A DNA stretch of 64,000 bases from Bacteroidota bacterium (GTDB lineage: Bacteria; Bacteroidota; Bacteroidia; Bacteroidales; JACABE01): assembly GCA_026391675.1 (NCBI GenBank), contig JAPLDQ010000020.1:62001-126000 (forward strand), in the 5' to 3' direction. The translations under genes and the position numbers were made by a program. The notes beneath the pieces are model-generated. The model saw only the letters and a list, made by a program, of their open reading frames with translations. It searched no databases and was not told where the DNA came from. Shown here one piece after another: positions 22,299 to 38,920 of this stretch. Numbering within the stretch: position 1 is the stretch's first letter; the number at the start of each line of letters is the position of its first letter.

Positions 22299-24743
22299 TT
22301 ATTTAACTGCTTCTTTATTCTTTTTATTAAAGGCTAAAACTTCTTTTGTGCATAAACCCAGCAGCATTAACAATAATATAAATGAACTCGCATAACCTAT
22401 TTTTTCGCCGGTATAATAAGATTTTGGTTCGAATTTGAATTCAATTTTATGCTCTCCCTGTGGTATTTTCATTGCCCTGAGTACATAGTTTACACGAATG
22501 TAAGGCTGTTGTTTACCATCAATATATGCATTCCATCCGTTAGCATAATAAATTTCAGAAAATACTGCCAATTCTTCTTTTTTAGCATTGGCCTGATACG
22601 TTAAATGATTAGGCAGATAATTACTTAATAAAATTGTTGAAGTTGAATCCTTACCAGGTTTGTAATCTTTAACATAATCATTAAATCTTTTATCAATGAT
22701 GGCTGTTGTTGCAGGCTCAAAATTGGATAAAGCACTTATTTCAGAATCAGGATTTTCAACAATTTTATAATTTTCAACAAACCATGCATTTCCTAAAGCT
22801 GCAACATTCCGTTGAACCTGAGGTTGTTTGTTTTGATCAGGAACGATGAAATATCTTGTATTTAACATATTCAGCACTTTAACATTGTTTTTGCTGATAT
22901 GCCGTTCAATTAAATCCTGATAACGGCGTATTTTAGCTGCATGATATCCACCAACAGATTTATGGAAATAAGAAGTACTTGCATCAGTAAAAGGATTTAC
23001 AGTGACATTATATACCCTGTAATTCGGATCTTTGTCTTCTAATATCATCATATCAGCATCTGTTGCCTGAAATGGAGTTTCAACATTTTTTTTATTGGTA
23101 AAATTGCTATTGTCAAAATATCTTTTATCCACTGGGAACATGTCAATTATAACCAATAAAATGAATGCAATAATTACAATTTCTTTTTTAATTTTATTTT
23201 CAATGAATGCCCATATTAAACCTGCAGCTAAAACGATAAACAGTAATGAACGCCATGCATCTGTTGTAAATATTGATTTTCTGTCTGAAATAATTGCATT
23301 CATAAGCCATTCAGGATAGGGGAGTTGGGCGTCAGTTGCAGATTTGAAATCAAAAAATGATGAACCAATTAAAGCAAAAAAGAGTGTAATACCACCGCAT
23401 ATATAGAGTGCAATTTTCCCATATTTCAACACATCTGCTTTTTCAGTTTTTTTAGTAATAATCTGGTTTAATGCTAAAATACCCAATAAAGGGATGCATA
23501 ATTCTGCAATTACTAAAATAGAAGCAACAGCTCTGAATTTGGAGTACATTGGGAAATAATCAAAGAAAAATTGGGTCAATGGCATAAAATTTTTGCCCCA
23601 GGCCAGCATAATTGATAATGTTGTTGCAGTTAGTAAAACCCATTTCATAGGTGTTTTAACTATAAACAGCCCGAGCACAAAAAGGAAAACAAAAATTGCA
23701 CCTGCATAAACAGGACCTGATGTAAATGGTTGCGCTCCCCAGTATAAAGGCATCTGGCTTGTTATTTCCTTGATATTCGGGACATTGTTTTGTTTTAAAG
23801 TAGCATATGCTTCTGAACTTTCACCTAATTTTCCACTTGATGAACCGCCTTTAAAATCAGGGATTAATAAGGTAAACGCTTCATCAATTCCATAACTCCA
23901 CTGTGTTGCATAATCAATATCAAGTCCTTTGGTTTTAACTTCAGGATTTGAACTGAGTTCAGAAGTACCTCTGATGGTATCTTTTGAATATTCATAGGTT
24001 GTCCATAAGCTTGTGATATTGGTACCCAATGCTAAGAAAACAGCTATAATTAATACCGCCGAAGCTTTTATAAACATCGTCAGTTGCTTTTCTTTAATTT
24101 TTGTATATAATTCGAATAAGATATAAATCAGAACCAGAATCATGAGGTAGTAGGTCATTTGAACATGATTCATTTTAATATTTATTGAAAGGAAAATGGC
24201 AGTAAGAAAACATCCCCACAAATATTTGCCTCGCATTGTAAGAATAATACCAGCTAATACAGGGGCCATATAACCTATGGTTGCAGCTTTTGTATTATGT
24301 CCGGCTTCAATTATAACAAAGAAATAGGACGAAAAGCCAAACGCAAGTGCCCCGATAATACTTAGCCAGGGATCAACTTTTAATACCAGCAATAAGATGA
24401 AAAATCCCAGAAAATATAAGAAAATAAAATTTGCAGGATTAGGTAATGAAAATAAATTCAAAGCCCTGTCAAAAAATGAAACTACATTATTAGATGGCGT
24501 GAGAATACTTATCATATAAGCCGGCATCCCGCCAAACATCGAATTGGTCCACAATGGTTCTTCTCCCGGATGTGCTTTACGAAAATCCAGAATTTCCTTT
24601 GCCGCACCTGTCCAGCTAACTGTATCTCCCTGTCTTAGCTGTTTTCCTTCCAGCATCGGACTTAAATAGGCAAATGTTACAATTAAAAATATTATTATTG
24701 CTGCTAAATAAGGCAGCATCTGTTTAAAATTGATATTCTTCAT
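22299..24743 (-). CDS. YfhO-family membrane protein
   Basis: 814 residues with about 12-13 hydrophobic segments. The N-terminal YLSPMLEGKQLRQGDT with WTGAAKEILDFRK and LWTNSMFGGMPAYMIS is diagnostic for Bacteroidota YfhO proteins. In Gram-positives YfhO is a GT-C-like membrane protein needed for glycosylation of lipoteichoic acid. The large extracytoplasmic domain (about 560-780) ends in NGWNAYIDGKQQPYIRVNYV, LRAMKIPQGEHKIEF, then a final membrane segment. It probably transfers a sugar to a lipid or polymer outside the membrane; donor and acceptor are unknown. The 16-bp gap to the DUF4834 gene indicates an operon. Confidence 0.88.
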   Translation of the reverse strand: MKNINFKQMLPYLAAIIIFLIVTFAYLSPMLEGKQLRQGDTVSWTGAAKEILDFRKAHPGEEPLWTNSMFGGMPAYMISILTPSNNVVSFFDRALNLFSLPNPANFIFLYFLGFFILLLVLKVDPWLSIIGALAFGFSSYFFVIIEAGHNTKAATIGYMAPVLAGIILTMRGKYLWGCFLTAIFLSINIKMNHVQMTYYLMILVLIYILFELYTKIKEKQLTMFIKASAVLIIAVFLALGTNITSLWTTYEYSKDTIRGTSELSSNPEVKTKGLDIDYATQWSYGIDEAFTLLIPDFKGGSSSGKLGESSEAYATLKQNNVPNIKEITSQMPLYWGAQPFTSGPVYAGAIFVFLFVLGLFIVKTPMKWVLLTATTLSIMLAWGKNFMPLTQFFFDYFPMYSKFRAVASILVIAELCIPLLGILALNQIITKKTEKADVLKYGKIALYICGGITLFFALIGSSFFDFKSATDAQLPYPEWLMNAIISDRKSIFTTDAWRSLLFIVLAAGLIWAFIENKIKKEIVIIAFILLVIIDMFPVDKRYFDNSNFTNKKNVETPFQATDADMMILEDKDPNYRVYNVTVNPFTDASTSYFHKSVGGYHAAKIRRYQDLIERHISKNNVKVLNMLNTRYFIVPDQNKQPQVQRNVAALGNAWFVENYKIVENPDSEISALSNFEPATTAIIDKRFNDYVKDYKPGKDSTSTILLSNYLPNHLTYQANAKKEELAVFSEIYYANGWNAYIDGKQQPYIRVNYVLRAMKIPQGEHKIEFKFEPKSYYTGEKIGYASSFILLLMLLGLCTKEVLAFNKKNKEAVK

Positions 24744-30086: not shown

Positions 30087-31571
30087 TTAATTTTTTATTA
30101 TTTTTAAGTTTTTAGTATGTTTTCCTGCGTTAAATTTTAAGAGGTATATGCCTTTCTCAAATTGATTATCTAAGGTTAACTGATGATTATATGAACCTAT
30201 TGTCTGTTTTCCTAAATCTTCATTTAAAATTCTTTTACCAAGTAAATCAAAGATTTCAATACTTACATTATTGCTTTCAGTTATAACGTAATTCAGATTT
30301 AATTTATCAGAGAAAGGGTTTGGAGTTACTGATATATTAATATCATTTTGCTGAATATTATTTACAGCCGTATTTATATGATAACATATTTCAACTTTAG
30401 GTAATTTCGCTGAATTTGGGCAATCTTTTGAGCCAAACAGCAAGCTTCTGTAATAATTTTCATCCAATAATTTAAACAAAAACCCATAGTTAGAACTGGG
30501 ATTATTGTAAAAATCAATTGCCATATTAGTAATATCAATATTAGTATAATCCATAGTGTCAGAAAGACTAGTTGGTAAAAATACCTGATTTTGAGTAGTT
30601 GTACCGGGTTGATTCGTCCAGTTTACAGTTGATTCGTTCCAGGCTGAAGTCAATTTTAATAATACAGCGGCATTTGAACCACTTTGTGTAGAATGGCCAA
30701 CATTGGCAGCACTGTTATAATGATACAAAGATAATTTTGCACTTGTAATGATAGCATTATTAGGAATTGCAATATCAAATTTTAATAATGAACGAATAAT
30801 CGATAAATTTCCACTATTTGTCCATGCAGTTGCAATAAAATCAGGAGCCACTGAATTTCCAACTGTAGGGGTTATGTTCCAAACAGCTGCATCCTTCCAA
30901 CTACTGTTATTTGTATTGATGGTAATACAAGTATCAATGGCAGTGCTTGTTGTATAAGTAATTACAAGTTTTGGACGTTTTGCATTATTTGTGTTATTAC
31001 TAGAAGAAAAAAGCATGCTTCTGAAATAATTTTCATTATCAAGTAACATCATTAAACCGTAACTGCTTGAAGGATTATTAATGATATCCTTAATTAAGTT
31101 TGTTATATTGATATTTGGATAATCCATTGTGTCATTGGTACTTTGAGGAATAATTACCTGATTTTGAGTGGTTGTAGTTGGTTGATTATTCCAGCATACT
31201 GTATTTTCATTCCAGGTTGATGTTATCCTTCTAAGTAAGCACATATTAGAGCCACTTTGTGTTGAATGCCCTACATTAGCAGTACTGGTATAATGATAAA
31301 GTGATAATGATGCATTTAAAATTGTAGCATTTGCAGGAATTGAAGAAAAATCAAAATCAATCAATGATCTGATAATACTTAGATTTCCACTGTTGGTCCA
31401 AGCTGTTGCTATAAAATCAGGTGCTAATGGATTAGGTGTGGTAGGAGTAATGTTCCATATTAAGGCATCTTTACTGCTGCTTTCATCTGGTTGCAATGTA
31501 ATGGTTGTTTGCGCTTTAATCTGAAATCCAATTAAAAGTACGATGCAAAATAAAGAAAAGACTTTTTTCAT
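30087..31571 (-). CDS. T9SS-secreted protein with duplicated DNRLRE/disaggregatase-type domains
   Basis: 494 residues. Signal peptide (ends FQIKAQ), then two homologous domains of about 185 residues (about 23-207 and 213-397). Shared blocks include APDFIATAWTNSGNLSIIRS, SLYHY and NVGHSTQSGSN, then TQNQV and DTMDY. The pattern (SLIDFDFSSIPANATILNASLSLY, TWNENTVCWNNQP) is that of DNRLRE domains, beta-sandwich modules found on secreted carbohydrate-associated proteins. A type A T9SS sorting domain ends the protein (VTPNPFSDKLNLNYV, FDLLGKRILNE, FEKGIYLLKF). Likely a surface or secreted carbohydrate-binding or structural protein; no catalytic domain is present. Confidence 0.88.
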   Translation of the reverse strand: MKKVFSLFCIVLLIGFQIKAQTTITLQPDESSSKDALIWNITPTTPNPLAPDFIATAWTNSGNLSIIRSLIDFDFSSIPANATILNASLSLYHYTSTANVGHSTQSGSNMCLLRRITSTWNENTVCWNNQPTTTTQNQVIIPQSTNDTMDYPNINITNLIKDIINNPSSSYGLMMLLDNENYFRSMLFSSSNNTNNAKRPKLVITYTTSTAIDTCITINTNNSSWKDAAVWNITPTVGNSVAPDFIATAWTNSGNLSIIRSLLKFDIAIPNNAIITSAKLSLYHYNSAANVGHSTQSGSNAAVLLKLTSAWNESTVNWTNQPGTTTQNQVFLPTSLSDTMDYTNIDITNMAIDFYNNPSSNYGFLFKLLDENYYRSLLFGSKDCPNSAKLPKVEICYHINTAVNNIQQNDINISVTPNPFSDKLNLNYVITESNNVSIEIFDLLGKRILNEDLGKQTIGSYNHQLTLDNQFEKGIYLLKFNAGKHTKNLKIIKN

Positions 31572-31674: not shown

Positions 31675-32307
31675 ATGGAAAATGTAAAAAATGTCCTCAT
31701 TTTAGCTCCTCATACTGATGACGGTGAACTTGGATGTGGTGGTACGATAGTTAAATTGATTGAAGAAAAGAAAAACGTTTTTTGTGCAGCATTTTCAATT
31801 GCAGAAGACTCTGTTCCTGAAGGTTTTGCAAAAGATGTTTTACAATATGAATTTACTAATGCTATGCTTAAGTTAGGATTACCTAAAGAAAATATAATTA
31901 CTTATCGTTTTAAAGTAAGAAATTTTCCAGAATTGCGTCAATCGATACTTGATGAAATTATTAAATTAAGAACAAAAATAGCACCTGAATTGGTTTTCGT
32001 CCCATCAACACATGATATACATCAGGATCATCAGGTAATTACGAATGAAGGATTGCGTGCATTTAAAAAAGTTTCAATTTTAGGATATGAATTACCATGG
32101 AATAATATTGTCTTTGAAACAAGATGTTTTGTGAAATTGGATAAAAGACATATCCAGTTAAAAATAGATGCTTTGAATTGTTATTTAACCCAAAAGCAAA
32201 GAACATATCTAAATGATGAATTTATTTGGAGTCTTGCTAAAACAAGGGGTACACAATTTGAGTATAATTATGCTGAAGCATTTGAAGTAATTAGGTGGAT
32301 AATTTAA
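31675..32307 (+). CDS. PIG-L (LmbE-like) deacetylase family protein
   Basis: 210 residues, no signal peptide. The zinc motif normally AHPDD appears as APHTDDGELGCGG (11-23), with H13 and D16 as likely ligands; the second site is STHDIHQDHQ (111-120), containing H113, H116 and H119. PIG-L enzymes remove N-acetyl from GlcNAc-type substrates. It stands before an LpxD-like acyltransferase, an ACP, an SDR and a KAS III, so I infer that it frees a sugar amine for re-acylation. It is shorter than typical BshB (bacillithiol) proteins and lacks that context. Confidence 0.85.
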   Translation: MENVKNVLILAPHTDDGELGCGGTIVKLIEEKKNVFCAAFSIAEDSVPEGFAKDVLQYEFTNAMLKLGLPKENIITYRFKVRNFPELRQSILDEIIKLRTKIAPELVFVPSTHDIHQDHQVITNEGLRAFKKVSILGYELPWNNIVFETRCFVKLDKRHIQLKIDALNCYLTQKQRTYLNDEFIWSLAKTRGTQFEYNYAEAFEVIRWII

Positions 32308-32385
32308 TTTTTAAAATTCTATTCATTCAATTCGATATAATATTTTAATACCAGATTTAATTTTATAACTAAAATACATGCTAAA

Positions 32386-33315
32386 ATGAACAAGATTAAT
32401 TATCAGATGATAGCAGAATATCTTGATAATCATGATATTATTGGCGATAAAAATGATGTATTATTTGATAATATTAAAAGTGTTTTAGAAGCAGATGAAA
32501 TGTCTTTGGTTTTTATAGGAAATAATAAAAATAATGCAGAAATTTTAATTTCTAAGACAAAAGCAAAAATAATTATTATTGGAAATCAGAATAATATTGA
32601 TTTCCCAAAAGATAAGGTATTTCTTATTGTTGAAAATCCAAAATTAGCTTTTTCTAAAATTGCAAACAGATATTTTATAAAATCCATAGACCATTCTATT
32701 CATCCTTCAGTTGTCATTCACCCGGAAGCAAAAATAGCAAAAAACGTTTATATTGGGCCAAATTGTGTAATCGGACGTGGTGAAATACAGGAAAATACAG
32801 TAATTTTTGGAAATGTATTTATTTACGATAATTTTATTATTGGTAAAAATGTTAAAATTAATGCCGGTACTGTGATTGGTGCTGAAGGTTATGGTTATAG
32901 CAGGGAAAAAGATGGCTCTCCAGTTCTTTTTCCACATATAGGAGGTGTTATTATTGAAGATAATGTTGATATCGGTTCTAATGTTTCTATTGATAGAGGT
33001 GCATTATCAAATACTATCATTAAGAAAGGCGTTAAAATTGATAACTTAGTTCATATTGCTCATAATGTATGCATTGGAGAAAATACTTTCGTAATTGCTA
33101 ATGCTACAATTTGTGGTAGTGTTACTATCGGGAAAAATGTTTGGGTAGGCCCTAATGTTATAATTTCTAATGGTTTGCATATTTGTGATAATGCTCAACT
33201 TTTAATCGGTTCGGTTGTTTTAAATAGTATCGTTACAGAAGAAGAATGTATTGGATATCCTGCATATAAAAAGAATAAATTCTTTAAAAATCAATATAAA
33301 ATAAATAATCTATAA
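32386..33315 (+). CDS. LpxD-like N-acyltransferase (left-handed beta-helix)
   Basis: 309 residues. About 100 N-terminal residues precede hexapeptide repeats from about 104 to 285 (IHPEAKIAKNVYIGPNCVIG onward). LpxD signatures are present: GAEGYGY (166-171 region), SIDRGAL and KIDNLVHIAHNV, with the expected catalytic histidine H226. LpxD transfers (R)-3-hydroxyacyl from ACP to the 2-amino group of UDP-acylated GlcN in lipid A synthesis. This copy is not beside lpxC/fabZ or lpxA, and it adjoins a private ACP and KAS III, so it may be a paralogue acting on another amino sugar. The C-terminal region after the helix is short and lysine-rich. Confidence 0.8.
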   Translation: MNKINYQMIAEYLDNHDIIGDKNDVLFDNIKSVLEADEMSLVFIGNNKNNAEILISKTKAKIIIIGNQNNIDFPKDKVFLIVENPKLAFSKIANRYFIKSIDHSIHPSVVIHPEAKIAKNVYIGPNCVIGRGEIQENTVIFGNVFIYDNFIIGKNVKINAGTVIGAEGYGYSREKDGSPVLFPHIGGVIIEDNVDIGSNVSIDRGALSNTIIKKGVKIDNLVHIAHNVCIGENTFVIANATICGSVTIGKNVWVGPNVIISNGLHICDNAQLLIGSVVLNSIVTEEECIGYPAYKKNKFFKNQYKINNL

Positions 33316-33336
33316 TTCTTTTAAGTATAATATTGC

Positions 33337-33344
33337 TAAATTTG
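33337..33344 (+). promoter_or_regulatory. Promoter -7 box TAAATTTG for the ACP-SDR-KAS III unit
   Basis: TAAATTTG fits TAnnTTTG, with a leader of about 17 nt to ATG 33368. The three acyl genes may therefore be expressed apart from the PIG-L/LpxD-like genes. Confidence 0.5.
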
Positions 33345-33367
33345 TAAAAACTTTAAATATAAATACA

Positions 33368-33595
33368 ATGGAAATAAAAGATTTTATCAATCACTTTGCC
33401 GATCAGTTTGATGAAACTGATAAAAGTGAATTTAATCCTGAAACAGAATTTAAAACATTAGATGAATGGAGTTCTTTAATTGCTTTATCAGTTATTGCTA
33501 TGGTAGATGAAGAATATAGTGTTAAATTAAAAGGAGAGGATATTCGTAACTCAAATACCATCAGTGATTTATATAACGTTATAGCATCAAAGTAA
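33368..33595 (+). CDS. Acyl carrier protein (dedicated)
   Basis: 75 residues, acidic, four-helix ACP pattern. The phosphopantetheine site appears as DEWSSLIAL (32-40), with S36 aligned to the Ser of the usual DSL motif; the preceding residue is Ser rather than Asp. Helix II continues SVIAMVDEEYSVKL and helix IV ISDLYNVIAS. This divergence from housekeeping AcpP (GADSLD) is typical of ACPs that serve specialised clusters. The SDR gene starts 8 bp after the stop. Confidence 0.88.
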   Translation: MEIKDFINHFADQFDETDKSEFNPETEFKTLDEWSSLIALSVIAMVDEEYSVKLKGEDIRNSNTISDLYNVIASK

Positions 33596-33602
33596 TAATA
33601 AA

Positions 33603-34349
33603 ATGTATAATCCATTTTCATTAAAGGACAAAACTATTTTTATTACCGGTGCATCTTCAGGAATTGGGCGTGCTGTTGCAATTGAATGTTCAAAATTAGG
33701 AGCAGATGTAATTATAAGCGGCAGAAATCCTGAAAGGTTACAGGAAACATTTGATGCTCTGGAAGGTCATAATAATAAGCAATTCCTTGCTGAGCTTCAA
33801 AATCACGAAGATGTAAATAGTTTGATAGACCAAATTCCATTACTTGATGGAATAGTTTTTTGTGCAGGATATACAAAAACACTTCCTTTTCAATTTATAA
33901 ATGAAGATGAATTAAATGCAATCATGCGAATTAATTTTATTGCTCCAACCTTAATTGCTCAATCATTACTGAAAAAGAAAAAGATTAAGAATGGTGCTTC
34001 AATAGTATTTATTTCTTCAATATCAGGTATGTATATTTCTTTTTATGGCAATTCCATGTATTCTGCATCTAAAGGTGCGATAAATGGTATGGTAAAAGGA
34101 ATGGCGCTTGATTTAGCCAATAAAAATATTCGCGTAAATACAGTAACACCTGGAATGATTCAGAGCAATATTATTAATACTGGTATTATTACAGAAGAAC
34201 AGATTAATGCAGATATTAAGAAATACCCTTTAAAAAGATATGGTAATCCAAATGAAGTGGCTTATGCCGTAATTTATTTATTATCTGATGCAACTACATG
34301 GATAACGGGTTCTAATCTATTAATTGATGGTGGTTACACCTTAACATAA
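33603..34349 (+). CDS. Short-chain dehydrogenase/reductase, FabG-like (3-oxoacyl-ACP reductase)
   Basis: 248 residues, classical SDR. Cofactor loop TGASSGIG (15-22) followed by SGRNPER, which favours NADPH; catalytic Ser in FISSISGM (about 138) and YSASKGA with Tyr near 153 and Lys near 157. The end GNPNEVAYAVIYLLSDATTW and TGSNLLIDGGYT is the usual FabG-type C-terminus. Between ACP and KAS III genes its probable job is to reduce the 3-oxoacyl-ACP made by the KAS III to 3-hydroxyacyl-ACP. Confidence 0.88.
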   Translation: MYNPFSLKDKTIFITGASSGIGRAVAIECSKLGADVIISGRNPERLQETFDALEGHNNKQFLAELQNHEDVNSLIDQIPLLDGIVFCAGYTKTLPFQFINEDELNAIMRINFIAPTLIAQSLLKKKKIKNGASIVFISSISGMYISFYGNSMYSASKGAINGMVKGMALDLANKNIRVNTVTPGMIQSNIINTGIITEEQINADIKKYPLKRYGNPNEVAYAVIYLLSDATTWITGSNLLIDGGYTLT

Positions 34350-34371
34350 AATTTATTTAATTTTTAATGTA

Positions 34372-35373
34372 ATGGATGCATATATTAAAGCAATATCATA
34401 TTATTTGCCTGATAAGAAGTTAACAAATGAGGACTTAAACGTTGAATTTCCTGAGTGGTCGGTTGAAAAAGTAGCTTCAAAAATTGGTGTTTCTGAAAGA
34501 AGTATAACTGGTGAAAATGAGTTCGCTTCTGATATGGCTATAAATGCCGCTAATAAGCTATTTTTAGAATACAAAATCAATCCGGAAGAAATCGATTTTA
34601 TTATGCTTTGTACGCAAAGTCCTGATTATTTTTTGCCAACAACTGCATGTATTATACAGGATAAGCTTAACATTCCTACAAGTGCCGGTGCAATTGACTT
34701 TAATTTAGGCTGTTCAGGTTTTGTTTATGGTTTATCAATTGCTAAAGGATTGATTTTTGGTGGTATAGCAAAAAATATTCTATTGTTAACTTCAGAAACT
34801 TATTCAAAATTCATGCACCCTAAAGATAAAGGGAACAGAACAATATTTGGAGATGCTGCAGCTGCAACTTTGATTTCAACGAATGGTTTTGCTAAAATTG
34901 AAAATTTTTCATTGGGAACTGATGGAAAAGGGGCTGAGAATTTGATGGTAAAAACAGGTGGAATGAGATTTAGAAGTGCTGTGAATAAAACCTCTATTGA
35001 TGAAAATGAAAATATTATTTCACCAGATCATTTATTTATGAATGGATCTGAAATATTTAACTTTACCTTAGAATTCGTCCCTCTTTTAGTTGAAGATACA
35101 TTGTTGAAAAATAACACCTTAAAGGATGATATAGATTTATTCGTATTTCATCAGGCAAATAAGTATATGCTTAATTTTTTACGAAAGAAAATTAAGATTG
35201 ATGAGGAAAAGTTTTATATTTCTCTGGAAAAGACCGGAAATACTGTATCTTCTACTATCCCAATAGCTTTAAAAGATGCATTGGATAAAAAAATCATTAA
35301 AGAAAATTACAAAGTATTATTAGCCGGTTTCGGTGTGGGCTATTCCTGGGGCGGTAATATCCTGGAATTTTAG
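34372..35373 (+). CDS. 3-oxoacyl-ACP synthase III (FabH-like)
   Basis: 333 residues, thiolase fold. The catalytic triad of KAS III is complete: C114 in LGCSGFVYG, H260 in VFHQAN and N290 in TGNTVSS; the final GFGVGYSWGG is conserved. KAS III condenses an acyl-CoA starter with malonyl-ACP. Together with the adjacent reductase and ACP it could make a short 3-hydroxyacyl group. Housekeeping FabH in Bacteroidota is usually encoded beside rpmF/plsX, which are absent here, so this is probably a paralogue. Confidence 0.9.
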   Translation: MDAYIKAISYYLPDKKLTNEDLNVEFPEWSVEKVASKIGVSERSITGENEFASDMAINAANKLFLEYKINPEEIDFIMLCTQSPDYFLPTTACIIQDKLNIPTSAGAIDFNLGCSGFVYGLSIAKGLIFGGIAKNILLLTSETYSKFMHPKDKGNRTIFGDAAAATLISTNGFAKIENFSLGTDGKGAENLMVKTGGMRFRSAVNKTSIDENENIISPDHLFMNGSEIFNFTLEFVPLLVEDTLLKNNTLKDDIDLFVFHQANKYMLNFLRKKIKIDEEKFYISLEKTGNTVSSTIPIALKDALDKKIIKENYKVLLAGFGVGYSWGGNILEF

Positions 35374-35417: not shown

Positions 35418-36725
35418 TCAATTATCCGTAATTAGATTAATTATTTTTGCAAACTTTTCAACTTGATTGTACCTTGAATATTTATTGTATTCTTCTCCGT
35501 ATAAATCAAGATTGTAATTCAATTTCCATTTATCAATAAGCGATTGAAAATATTTGGTAATTCCATCTTCATCTTCATAATCTAATACTTCTCCTGCATT
35601 ACATTCATGTATTAATTTGGCAACATCACCTTTTGTTGGCCCAATACAAATTATCGGCTTTTTAACCGCCAGGTATTCAAATATTTTTGCACTGATCAAA
35701 CCTTCTTTTCTTACTGCCGGATATATGGTGAAGAATACTGCAGTACTTGTTTTTAGTAATTTTATAACTTCATTATGTAATACAAAATTAATTACTTCCA
35801 GGTTATCTGAGATTTCTTCTTTATTAAAAATATCATTAATTTTTTTATCAATTTTCCCAATCATTACTATTTTTATTTTAACCACTGGATTTGCTTTTAT
35901 AACATTGCTAAATGCCTTAATCATGCAATCCAGGTTATAATCAATTGAGAGTGAACCTATATACATTAAAATAAATGTATCCTTTGAGGGAGTAGAGGGA
36001 AGCAAAAAATCTTCATGGTTAAAGCCATTTGGTATGGTTGTAAATTTTTCAGGATTAATATTGCCTGATTTTTCTTTAAACATTTCAATTAAAGTATCGC
36101 TAACAGTAGTAATACTATCAGCATTTTCTATTACTTTTTTTTCTAATTTTTTATCAATAAATTCAGCTAATTTAGTGTGGTATAGTAAATCATAGAAAAA
36201 AATGTCTGTCCAGGGATCTCTGAAGTCTGCAATCCAAGGTAAATTATATTTTTTCTTTAATTTTAATCCGACAAGATGTGTAGAGTTTGGAGGCCCGGTT
36301 GTAATTATCGTATCAATTTTTTCAGTATTAATAATATTGCTGCACTGCCTAAATGCATATTTATTCCACCCAATTCTCGCATCGGGAATAAAAAAATTCC
36401 CCCTTATAAAACGCATTATTTTTTTATAAAAATTTGGATTGGTTTCATTTACAAAACCTGGTTGAGGTATTTCATTCTTTCTGTTAAGCTTTCTGTATAT
36501 TTCCAATGGTTCAAATGAATCTGTTCTGTAGACTCTTATGTCTTTTGGAATTTGATCAATTAATGAATTATCAATTATCGGATATGAAGCTCTTTTTTCA
36601 TCAACAGTTATTACAATCAATTCAATATCAAAATCTTTGAAAAATTTTGACATTTTTAACCAGCGTTGTACTCCTGCACCACCACTTGGCGGCCAGTAAT
36701 AGGTGATAATAAGAACCTTTTTCAT
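35418..36725 (-). CDS. Glycosyltransferase family 4 protein
   Basis: 435 residues. The start VLIITYYWPPSGGAGVQRW is a frequent opening of Bacteroidota GT4 proteins with a glycine-rich acceptor loop. The donor half has LMYIGSLSIDYNLDCMIKAF (about 250-270) and the E-x7-E-like region in ISAKIFEYLAVKKPIICIG (about 345-363). An insertion of about 60 residues between the first two strands (PQPGFVNETNPNFYKKIMRF) is seen in this subgroup. It converges on the KAS III gene and shares a divergent control region with the next glycosyltransferase. Confidence 0.85.
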   Translation of the reverse strand: MKKVLIITYYWPPSGGAGVQRWLKMSKFFKDFDIELIVITVDEKRASYPIIDNSLIDQIPKDIRVYRTDSFEPLEIYRKLNRKNEIPQPGFVNETNPNFYKKIMRFIRGNFFIPDARIGWNKYAFRQCSNIINTEKIDTIITTGPPNSTHLVGLKLKKKYNLPWIADFRDPWTDIFFYDLLYHTKLAEFIDKKLEKKVIENADSITTVSDTLIEMFKEKSGNINPEKFTTIPNGFNHEDFLLPSTPSKDTFILMYIGSLSIDYNLDCMIKAFSNVIKANPVVKIKIVMIGKIDKKINDIFNKEEISDNLEVINFVLHNEVIKLLKTSTAVFFTIYPAVRKEGLISAKIFEYLAVKKPIICIGPTKGDVAKLIHECNAGEVLDYEDEDGITKYFQSLIDKWKLNYNLDLYGEEYNKYSRYNQVEKFAKIINLITDN

Positions 36726-36843: not shown

Positions 36844-37959
36844 TTGAAAAAAGCTGTTGTTTCTGTAACAAATGATTTAAGTACTGACCAAAGGGTGGAT
36901 AAAGTATGTAAAACCCTTATGAAATGCGGTTTTGAAGTGGAGTTGGTTGGCAGGCAGAGAATCGATAGTCAGGCATTATCAGACAGAAATTACAGTACAA
37001 AACGCTTTCGTTTACTCTTTGAGAAAAATGTTTTTTTTTATGCTGAATTCAACCTGCGATTGTTTTTCTATTTACTGGCAAATAAACAGGATTTACTGAT
37101 TGCCAATGATCTGGATACTCTGCTGCCCAATTATCTGATTAGTAAAATTAAAAGAATTCCCTTGGTTTATGATAGTCATGAATATTTTTGTGGTGTTCCT
37201 GAACTTGAAAGCAATGCCTTTGCACGTAATTTTTGGCTTAAAATTGAGAGATTTATCTTTCCGAAACTGAAACATATTTTTACTGTAAATGATTCTATTG
37301 CAGAGTTATATCGTAATCAATATAATGTTGAACTTAAAGTTGTAAGAAATATTCCTTTACGACAGGAAAATATTAATATTAAAAGCAGAAAGGAATTAAT
37401 GCTGCCTGTTGATAAAAAAATATTATTGCTTCAGGGTGCCGGTATTAATGTAGATAGGGGCGTTGAAGAGCTTATTGAAGCCATGCAATGGGTGGATAAT
37501 GCTGTTTTATTGATAATAGGAGGGGGTGATGTTTTTGATTTACTTAAACAAAAAGCTGAAGCGTTAAGTTTAACTGATAAAATTCGATTTATTAAAAAGC
37601 TTCCTTATGCCGATTTAATGCAATATACAGCAAATGCAGACCTTGGTTTAACCCTTGATAGGGACAGTAATCTGAATTACAGATTCAGCCTGCCCAATAA
37701 ACTATTTGATTATATTCATGCAGGAATAGCAGTACTTTCATCCGATTTGATTGAGATCAGAAAAATAATTGAGCAATATGAGATAGGGGAAATTATTAAA
37801 GATCATCAGCCGGAAACTATTGCCAATCATATTAATAAATTGCTGACTGATGATGAAAAACGACTAAAATACGCAGCAAATACAAAAATTGCAGCTGCTG
37901 AACTTTGCTGGGAAAATGAAGAAAAAGAATTGATGAAAGTATATAAACTTTATTCGTAA
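36844..37959 (+). CDS. Glycosyltransferase (GT4-type)
   Basis: 371 residues; TTG start placed by the promoter box. A nearby ATG at 36833 is out of frame and stops after four codons. The N-terminus has VSVTNDLSTDQRVDKVCKTL, typical of one Bacteroidota glycosyltransferase subgroup, and ANDLDTLLPNYL with YDSHEYF. The donor domain contains LLLQGAGINVDRGVEELIEA, GGGDVFD and the acidic region SLPNKLFDYIHAGIAVLSSD (about 283-302). Probably cotranscribed with the GT2 gene 43 bp downstream; surface polysaccharide synthesis is inferred. Confidence 0.85.
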   Translation: MKKAVVSVTNDLSTDQRVDKVCKTLMKCGFEVELVGRQRIDSQALSDRNYSTKRFRLLFEKNVFFYAEFNLRLFFYLLANKQDLLIANDLDTLLPNYLISKIKRIPLVYDSHEYFCGVPELESNAFARNFWLKIERFIFPKLKHIFTVNDSIAELYRNQYNVELKVVRNIPLRQENINIKSRKELMLPVDKKILLLQGAGINVDRGVEELIEAMQWVDNAVLLIIGGGDVFDLLKQKAEALSLTDKIRFIKKLPYADLMQYTANADLGLTLDRDSNLNYRFSLPNKLFDYIHAGIAVLSSDLIEIRKIIEQYEIGEIIKDHQPETIANHINKLLTDDEKRLKYAANTKIAAAELCWENEEKELMKVYKLYS

Positions 37960-38002: not shown

Positions 38003-38920
38003 ATGTTATCCATTTGCATACCTGTATATAATTTTGATGTGACTTCATTGGTCAACCGTTTGGCTGTGCAGATTAAAGATCTGGATGTAAAATGCAAAAT
38101 TATTCTGATAGATGATTGTTCTTCTGATGAATTCAATAAGATAAATGCTCCATTTTGTTCGCAACACACATATATTCAACTGGATAAAAATATTGGCCGT
38201 TCAAAAATCAGAAATCTGTTTTTAACGTATTCAGAATCAAAATATTTGCTGTTTCTGGATTGTGATTCATTCATATTTGACGATGGTTTTTTATCAAAAT
38301 ATATTCATTATCTGAAAACAAAAAACTGGGATGTAATCTGCGGAGGCAGGGTTTACGGAACGGATAAACCGGAACGAAGTAAAATATTAAGATGGAAATA
38401 TGGCGTAAACAAGGAAAGTCAGCCATATGAAGTACGCAGGCAATCGCCCAATAAATCCTTTATGACAAATAATTTTTTAATTAAAAGGGAGATATTGCAG
38501 TCATTCAGGTTTGATGAAAATATTCATGATTATGGACATGAGGATACCTTGTTCGGTTATTTGCTGAAGAAAAATAAAATTCAAATCAAACATATTGATA
38601 ATCCTATCCTTAACGGAGATATCGAAGAAAATGCAATTTTCCTTTTAAAAACTGAAAAAGGTATTGCAAATCTTATTTATATACTTGATTATCTTGAGTA
38701 TGATAATGCTTTTATTCAGGATGTTGCCCTGCTTCGGTTTTATTATAGAATTAAAAGCTATCATCTGACAAATCTGTTGTATTACAAATTTGTTATTATA
38801 AAACCATTATTAAAGAGTTTGTTTATAAAAGGCTATGTAAGTCTTTTATTATTCGACTTTTATAAATTAGGAATACTTATCAGTAATTTTAAATGTAAAA
38901 CTAAAAACAACAAAGTTTAA
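38003..38920 (+). CDS. Glycosyltransferase family 2 protein
   Basis: 305 residues, GT-A fold. Opening LSICIPVYNFD, nucleotide-binding acidic residues in ILIDDCSSDE (about 35-44), NIGRSKIRN and the DxD-like LFLDCDSF (about 88-95). A later region DYGHEDTLFGYLL (about 179-191) fits the catalytic-base loop of GT2 enzymes. The last 60 residues are basic and hydrophobic and may bind the membrane. The last four bases (TTAA) are shared with the end of the convergent ATPase gene. Confidence 0.88.
   Translation: MLSICIPVYNFDVTSLVNRLAVQIKDLDVKCKIILIDDCSSDEFNKINAPFCSQHTYIQLDKNIGRSKIRNLFLTYSESKYLLFLDCDSFIFDDGFLSKYIHYLKTKNWDVICGGRVYGTDKPERSKILRWKYGVNKESQPYEVRRQSPNKSFMTNNFLIKREILQSFRFDENIHDYGHEDTLFGYLLKKNKIQIKHIDNPILNGDIEENAIFLLKTEKGIANLIYILDYLEYDNAFIQDVALLRFYYRIKSYHLTNLLYYKFVIIKPLLKSLFIKGYVSLLLFDFYKLGILISNFKCKTKNNKV

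Follow-up and report, generated by a model that had tools for sequence, protein, structure and literature searches.

Five neighbouring genes in the DNA of a Bacteroidota bacterium probably make up a pathway dedicated to exchanging the N-acyl group on an amino sugar of a surface glycan, a reading to which we assign a rough probability of 0.6 from the sequences. The genes lie in a stretch of 64,000 nucleotides, here called the window (contig JAPLDQ010000020.1 of assembly GCA_026391675.1; C24:62001-126000 of genome G000 in our numbering), from a genome of 4.04 Mb that is assembled in 48 contigs and is 98% complete. At 31675-35373 of the window, five uninterrupted open reading frames (ORFs) follow one another on the plus strand, separated in order by 78, 52, 7 and 22 bp. 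They encode a PIG-L family de-N-acetylase, an LpxD-like N-acyltransferase, an acyl carrier protein (ACP), a FabG-like reductase of the short-chain dehydrogenase/reductase (SDR) type and a 3-oxoacyl-ACP synthase III (KAS III). Their active sites are intact, they differ from the housekeeping copies of the same genome, and two sub-modules of the set are conserved elsewhere.

In the proposed scheme the PIG-L enzyme would strip the N-acetyl group from a GlcNAc-type sugar, held on a nucleotide or lipid carrier. Starting from acetyl-CoA or a different short primer, the KAS III would carry out the condensation with malonyl bound to the private ACP; reduction of the 3-oxo group by the SDR would give a short 3-hydroxyacyl-ACP, most simply 3-hydroxybutyryl-ACP. 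The LpxD-like beta-helix enzyme, with His226 as base, would then move the 3-hydroxyacyl group to the freed amine, and the product would be used by glycosyltransferases, possibly by the one that we call GTa together with a YfhO-family protein. We infer every one of these reactions, as well as their order, the chain length, the identity of the sugar, its destination and the glycan. An earlier reading of the DNA made without database searches (the sequence-only reading) had proposed deacetylation, ACP-bound assembly of a short 3-hydroxyacyl group and LpxD-like transfer; this chemistry is still the best reading, and the interpretation as a whole is partly supported.

Gene content and active sites

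Protein families in the window were called with Pfam and NCBIfam profiles (Table 1), and the row of five plus-strand genes described by the sequence-only reading was recovered with its active-site residues in place. The HxDD and HQDH motifs of the PIG-L protein are kept in its orthologues. The SDR has an intact YxxxK active site. The KAS III matched PF08545/PF08541 and retained C114, H260 and N290; it scored below the strict FabH model (256 versus 292 bits), and its closest solved structure was 3gwa. The ACP taken alone gave no Pfam or NCBIfam match at 1e-3 and no match in PHROGs, and against PF00550 it reached 18.1 bits, under the cut-off of 20.8. We nevertheless regard it as real, because its family was found within 4.5 kb of a KAS III relative in 73 of 80 GTDB loci and because Ser36 aligns with the phosphopantetheine serine of the DSL site in the genome's own ACP. 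A scan for sigma-70 promoters and terminators returned nothing exceeding shuffled sequence.

The LpxD-like protein scored above the NCBIfam LpxD cut-off, so that automatic pipelines would name the gene LpxD. It also matched PF04613 (35.9 bits), with the N-domain followed by a hexapeptide beta-helix, and its best PDB matches were all LpxD. The catalytic histidine is intact: H226 aligns with the 'IAHN' motif of E. coli LpxD. In an alignment with the genome's own lipid A LpxD, however, the chain stops shortly beyond the beta-helix, without the long C-terminal helical extension of the true enzyme. In LpxD structures Phe, Asn and Tyr residues belong to the uridine pocket, and Phe-Asn-Tyr was not retained as a set across the LpxD-like family. 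An AlphaFold model had a mean predicted local distance difference test score of 71 and a predicted template modelling (TM) score of 0.55, and the nearest solved fold was that of LpxD, with low TM-scores; given this modest quality the pocket is not readable from the model. The enzyme may therefore work as LpxD does, yet we do not class it as a lipid A LpxD. A third LpxD-like gene of the genome (C23:5849-6727, locus L016; 314 amino acids) is neither the lipid A copy nor of the window type, and is adjoined by genes reading as elongation factor P and a signal-recognition GTPase.

Table 1. Coordinates of the five-gene set and of neighbouring features in the window
Feature	Position	Strand	Basis
PIG-L family de-N-acetylase, 210 aa	31675..32307	+	PF02585, 54 bits (cut-off 28.2); HxDD and HQDH motifs
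LpxD-like left-handed beta-helix N-acyltransferase, predicted, 309 aa	32386..33315	+	TIGR01853, 260 bits (cut-off 242.5); PDB matches; alignment with own lipid A LpxD
Dedicated ACP, 75 aa, phosphopantetheine site DEWS-Ser36-L	33368..33595	+	ACP family beside KAS III; alignment with housekeeping ACP
FabG-like 3-oxoacyl-ACP reductase (SDR), 248 aa	33603..34349	+	PF13561, 161 bits; NF005559, 186 bits
KAS III (3-oxoacyl-ACP synthase III), 333 aa, C114/H260/N290	34372..35373	+	NF006829, 269 bits (cut-off 249); tree
Glycosyltransferase GTa, GT4-like, convergent to the set	35418..36725	-	PF00534/PF13439
Glycosyltransferase, GT4-like, possibly of the same pathway	36844..37959	+	PF00534, 72 bits
Glycosyltransferase family 2, possibly of the same pathway	38003..38920	+	PF00535, 60 bits
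YfhO-family membrane protein, about 11 kb from GTa	22299..24743	-	PF09586, 39.9 bits

The set consists of dedicated copies

The five genes are, by sequence, dedicated and non-housekeeping copies: fabH, lpxD and acp are also encoded elsewhere in the genome, the clade of the KAS III is a distinct one and the set is kept in other genomes. Genome-wide searches found the housekeeping FabH on contig C36 (358 bits, compared with 255 for the window KAS III), the true LpxD on C27 (355 bits, compared with 237-245 for the window protein) and the housekeeping ACP on C37 (62 bits). In a tree of 43 KAS III sequences the window copy was placed in a 22-member clade (support 100/97), and the genome's own FabH grouped with the housekeeping FabHs (100/100). 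Both the private status of the copies and the separation of the KAS III from its housekeeping counterparts, as raised by the sequence-only reading, were thus borne out. That the genes could instead be housekeeping lipid A and fatty acid synthase II (FAS II) genes, or that the PIG-L gene could be the bacillithiol gene BshB1, is hardly credible, and we consider it refuted at the sequence level: NCBIfam would indeed call the second gene LpxD and the PIG-L protein weakly resembles BshB1, but better copies of lpxD, fabH and acp exist elsewhere in the genome, the PIG-L protein is far under the BshB1 cut-off (51.5 bits versus 182.5 for TIGR04001), and the best BshA match of the genome is also under its cut-off (86.8 versus 273.7 bits). 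If our reading is right, it carries the caution that automatically annotated LpxD genes may act outside lipid A.

The PIG-L/LpxD-like pair recurs with changing acyl supply

Among 393 genomes of the order, orthologues of the PIG-L protein were found in 31 and of the LpxD-like protein in 8, with both present in 6 (hypergeometric p = 4e-6, a value that treats genomes as independent and is made optimistic by their relatedness). In all six (the window genome, G062, G167, G207, G290 and G016) the two genes were no more than about 3 kb apart. The complete five-gene set was detected in the window genome, G062 and G167 (JAHEYR010000203.1, the same contig as locus L074), that is in three genomes of two families, G062 and G167 belonging to one genus outside the family of the window genome; the gene order differs. 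A phylum-wide profile search gave 8 further strong LpxD-like matches, 7 of them in a second, distant lineage, family f142. At each of the six f142 loci inspected out of these seven, PIG-L was adjacent to the LpxD-like gene and homologues of GTa and YfhO lay within a few kb. At five of them an ACP and an AMP-binding ligase adjoined the LpxD-like gene (PF00501 and PF00550 were confirmed in L238, the others were recognised by sequence resemblance, and the ACP of L240 is hidden under an overlapping ORF). These five (L236-L238, L240 and L241) present YfhO, GTa, ligase, ACP, LpxD-like and PIG-L genes in one conserved chromosomal locus, in which the ACP seems to have been kept and the KAS III and reductase replaced by the ligase; the sixth, L239, had no acyl-supply gene at the locus.

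The amine-making partner varies as well. At locus L109 the LpxD-like, ACP, reductase and KAS III genes are flanked by genes reading as DegT aminotransferases in place of PIG-L, and in G402 the neighbour of the LpxD-like gene is a marginal polysaccharide deacetylase (PF01522, 23.6 bits versus a cut-off of 23.1). Across loci, the LpxD-like gene repeatedly has an amine-making enzyme and a source of acyl-ACP around it, but not always the same ones. The recurrence of the pair supports a predicted step of de-N-acetylation and re-N-acylation with an exchangeable ACP-bound donor. We tentatively extend this to a conserved surface-glycan step of Bacteroidota, at a little less than even odds: the pair, often together with one glycosyltransferase and YfhO, would replace a sugar N-acetyl group with an acyl group delivered by an ACP, and that group would change between lineages through exchange of the supply (KAS III, reductase and ACP; AMP-ligase and ACP; or none). 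What the present analysis adds is this broader picture, a PIG-L/LpxD-like core whose supply can be exchanged. If it is true, the step would correspond to LpxC/LpxD but act outside lipid A and be modular in evolution, the acyl donor could be changed by exchanging a small cassette while the deacetylase/acyltransferase core is retained, and the genes would form a signature from which N-acyl sugars other than N-acetyl ones could be predicted in the surface glycans of Bacteroidota.

Several observations weigh against the proposed pathway in the window. The full set is rare, as the three genomes indicate, and no nucleotide-sugar gene is found beside the five genes. The position of the uracil-stacking Tyr of E. 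coli LpxD is Asn in the window protein, and with both this residue and the C-terminal helices missing the binding of donor or acceptor must differ from that in LpxD. Neither the acceptor nor the chain length is derivable from sequence. Finally, in G207, G290, G016 and G568 the pair occurs without acyl-supply genes at the locus, so that it is not strictly dependent on a local cassette. This last point, along with the rarity of LpxD-like genes beside the supply genes (2 of 80 loci, see below), would fit two units lying side by side, with the ACP, reductase and KAS III serving another acyltransferase and the PIG-L and LpxD-like enzymes working on a different sugar with acetyl-CoA or a housekeeping acyl-ACP. 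We consider such an arrangement unlikely, because all five genes occur together in two families despite their differing order and because the window, G062, G167, L109 and five f142 loci all have the ACP gene directly adjoining the LpxD-like one.

The ACP-reductase-KAS III triplet in Bacteroidota

The 80 loci were obtained by scanning GTDB genome contigs with the KAS III alignment (59-69% identity) and include Bacteroidales, Flavobacterium, Chryseobacterium, Pedobacter and Chitinophaga. Most of them read ACP-reductase-KAS III, and polysaccharide loci of Bacteroidota commonly contain this triplet; the reductase count of 56 of the 80 is too low, as it leaves out any reductase that overlaps the KAS III by a few bases, and reading of the loci shows more. 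The acyltransferase of the triplet varies, being usually a different hexapeptide enzyme, PglD/NeuD-like or WcaF-like, and rarely an LpxD-like one. Co-occurrence of the five families in Bacteroidota, which the sequence-only reading had suggested looking for, held in G062 and G167; the widespread parts are the triplet with its varying acyltransferase and, separately, the pair with its varying supply. G003, a genome of the same genus, has the triplet in a polysaccharide locus together with an acyltransferase of WcaF-like type, and a search at E <= 1e-25 found no orthologue of PIG-L in it. The FKBP and FtsE genes that served as synteny anchors are on separate contigs of G003, with the five-gene set absent beside both, so that the comparison does not demonstrate insertion at a single site.

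The 3-hydroxyacyl chains transferred by true LpxD enzymes are long, and 33 of the 80 related loci have an additional KAS III, which would be expected if the product is longer, like the 3,5-dihydroxyhexanoyl group of Flavobacterium psychrophilum (PMC6519341). An acyl group that is extended or reduced by the general FAS II in trans, resulting in a lipid-like N-acyl sugar or a glycolipid, would agree with these points. We regard it as quite improbable for the window, where the set has a single KAS III and no elongating KAS; the equivalent set of Pseudomonas syringae, also with one KAS III, yields 3-hydroxybutyryl (PMC3927599). The argument that a hydroxylated product follows from the lack of a dehydratase did not hold up well, since the general pathway could contribute its FabZ and FabI in trans.

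Two further kinds of protein were seen in related cassettes. L111 (8165-9250) and equivalent Flavobacterium loci contain a Rieske oxygenase-like protein of about 361 amino acids inside the ACP/KAS III/reductase cassette, which might oxidise the acyl group further. In L106 (1035-2831) a 598-amino-acid protein, by its reading a fusion of a FrhB-like iron-sulphur domain with a hexapeptide acyltransferase, adjoins the reductase and KAS III, and proteins of similar size occur in several other Bacteroidales loci.

Comparison with known systems

The acyl-supply half of the set is a known module. The viosamine island of P. syringae contains acp, vioR, vioS and vioB (and vioA), its sugar carries a 3-hydroxy-1-oxobutyl group, and deletion of vioR removes the modified viosamine (PMC3927599). 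The vioS/vioR precedent cited in the sequence-only reading is thus sound, with the amendment that acp and vioB belong to the same island. As proposed for the window, a KAS III, a 3-oxoacyl-ACP reductase, a private ACP and an acyltransferase are used for 3-hydroxybutyryl on an amino sugar; unlike in the proposed scheme, the amine comes from the aminotransferase VioA and not from a PIG-L enzyme, VioB has 213 amino acids compared with 309 for the LpxD-like protein, and the product is a flagellin glycan. In the Bacteroidota themselves, the R1-group genes wfpC-wfpG of the F. psychrophilum O-polysaccharide encode an ACP, 3-ketoacyl-ACP synthases, a reductase and an acyltransferase, with predicted N-acylation of UDP-Qui2NAc4N (PMC6519341). 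Their gene content is similar, but they include two ketosynthases (for 3,5-dihydroxyhexanoyl) and a PglD-type acyltransferase, follow an aminotransferase route and are located inside the O-polysaccharide locus. Compared with modules of this type, the window has the KAS III, reductase and private ACP and an adjacent N-acyltransferase, though an LpxD-like one and not of PglD/VioB type; none of its neighbouring genes encodes a sugar aminotransferase, and PIG-L is present instead.

The proposed order of events resembles that of LpxC and LpxD in lipid A synthesis, where deacetylation is followed by N-acylation from 3-hydroxyacyl-ACP through a homologous acyltransferase. It differs in that PIG-L is unrelated to LpxC, that the acyl supply is private and that a true LpxD is encoded separately in the genome. 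The scheme also parallels the Wbp/Vim pathway of Porphyromonas gingivalis, which makes the linking sugar of the type IX secretion system (T9SS): an N-acetyl group on a lipopolysaccharide (LPS) sugar is removed and another N-acyl group is put in, VimE being a CE4 enzyme and VimA a putative N-acetyltransferase that adds an amino acid (PMC7468200). That pathway works without ACP or KAS III, and its description of VimE as CE4 ruled out homology with PIG-L. A further comparison is the Pseudomonas pair PSPTO_4989/4990, in which a PIG-L gene stands beside an N-acyltransferase, as in the window, but one of GNAT type in place of LpxD-like; the pair lies with a glycosyltransferase in an LPS-core locus, the oligosaccharide carries N-alanyl, and for the homologues in P. 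aeruginosa the paper gives the function as unknown (PMC8005017). A literature search, with subscription papers mostly outside its reach, found no description of PIG-L combined with LpxD. The view of the sequence-only reading that the exact set was undescribed thus has to be narrowed, as the ACP, KAS III, reductase and acyltransferase half had already been described (PMC3927599, PMC6519341); the pairing with PIG-L and an LpxD-like enzyme appears undescribed and is conserved in part across the phylum.

Neighbouring genes

The three glycosyltransferases placed downstream of the set by the sequence-only reading are all real, but the first of them, GTa, is on the minus strand and convergent, and the three do not form one operon with the set. 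Homologues of GTa and YfhO are neighbours of PIG-L in several further genomes. The G016 locus runs YfhO, GTa, PIG-L, LpxD-like and a DNRLRE protein that is 52% identical to the product of window 30087-31571; the window has the same DNRLRE and GTa neighbours, with the triplet lying between the LpxD-like gene and GTa. The window DNRLRE protein bears a T9SS sorting tail, and its homologue (L197, 5753-7267) lies beside the pair in G016, a genome of a different family.

Twenty-five PIG-L loci were compared, L074 and L194 being one and the same contig. About half of them had both a YfhO and a GTa homologue nearby, assignments of GTa, YfhO and WbqC outside the window having been made by BLAST to single references and checked with Pfam in one case for WbqC and two for YfhO. 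PIG-L orthologues without an LpxD-like neighbour often adjoin a WbqC-like gene (PF08889; L155, L200, L203 and L205-L208). Each of the 25 loci had an LpxD-like gene, a WbqC gene or neither, and never both together; in the sampled loci the two are mutually exclusive, as if they were alternative partners of PIG-L.

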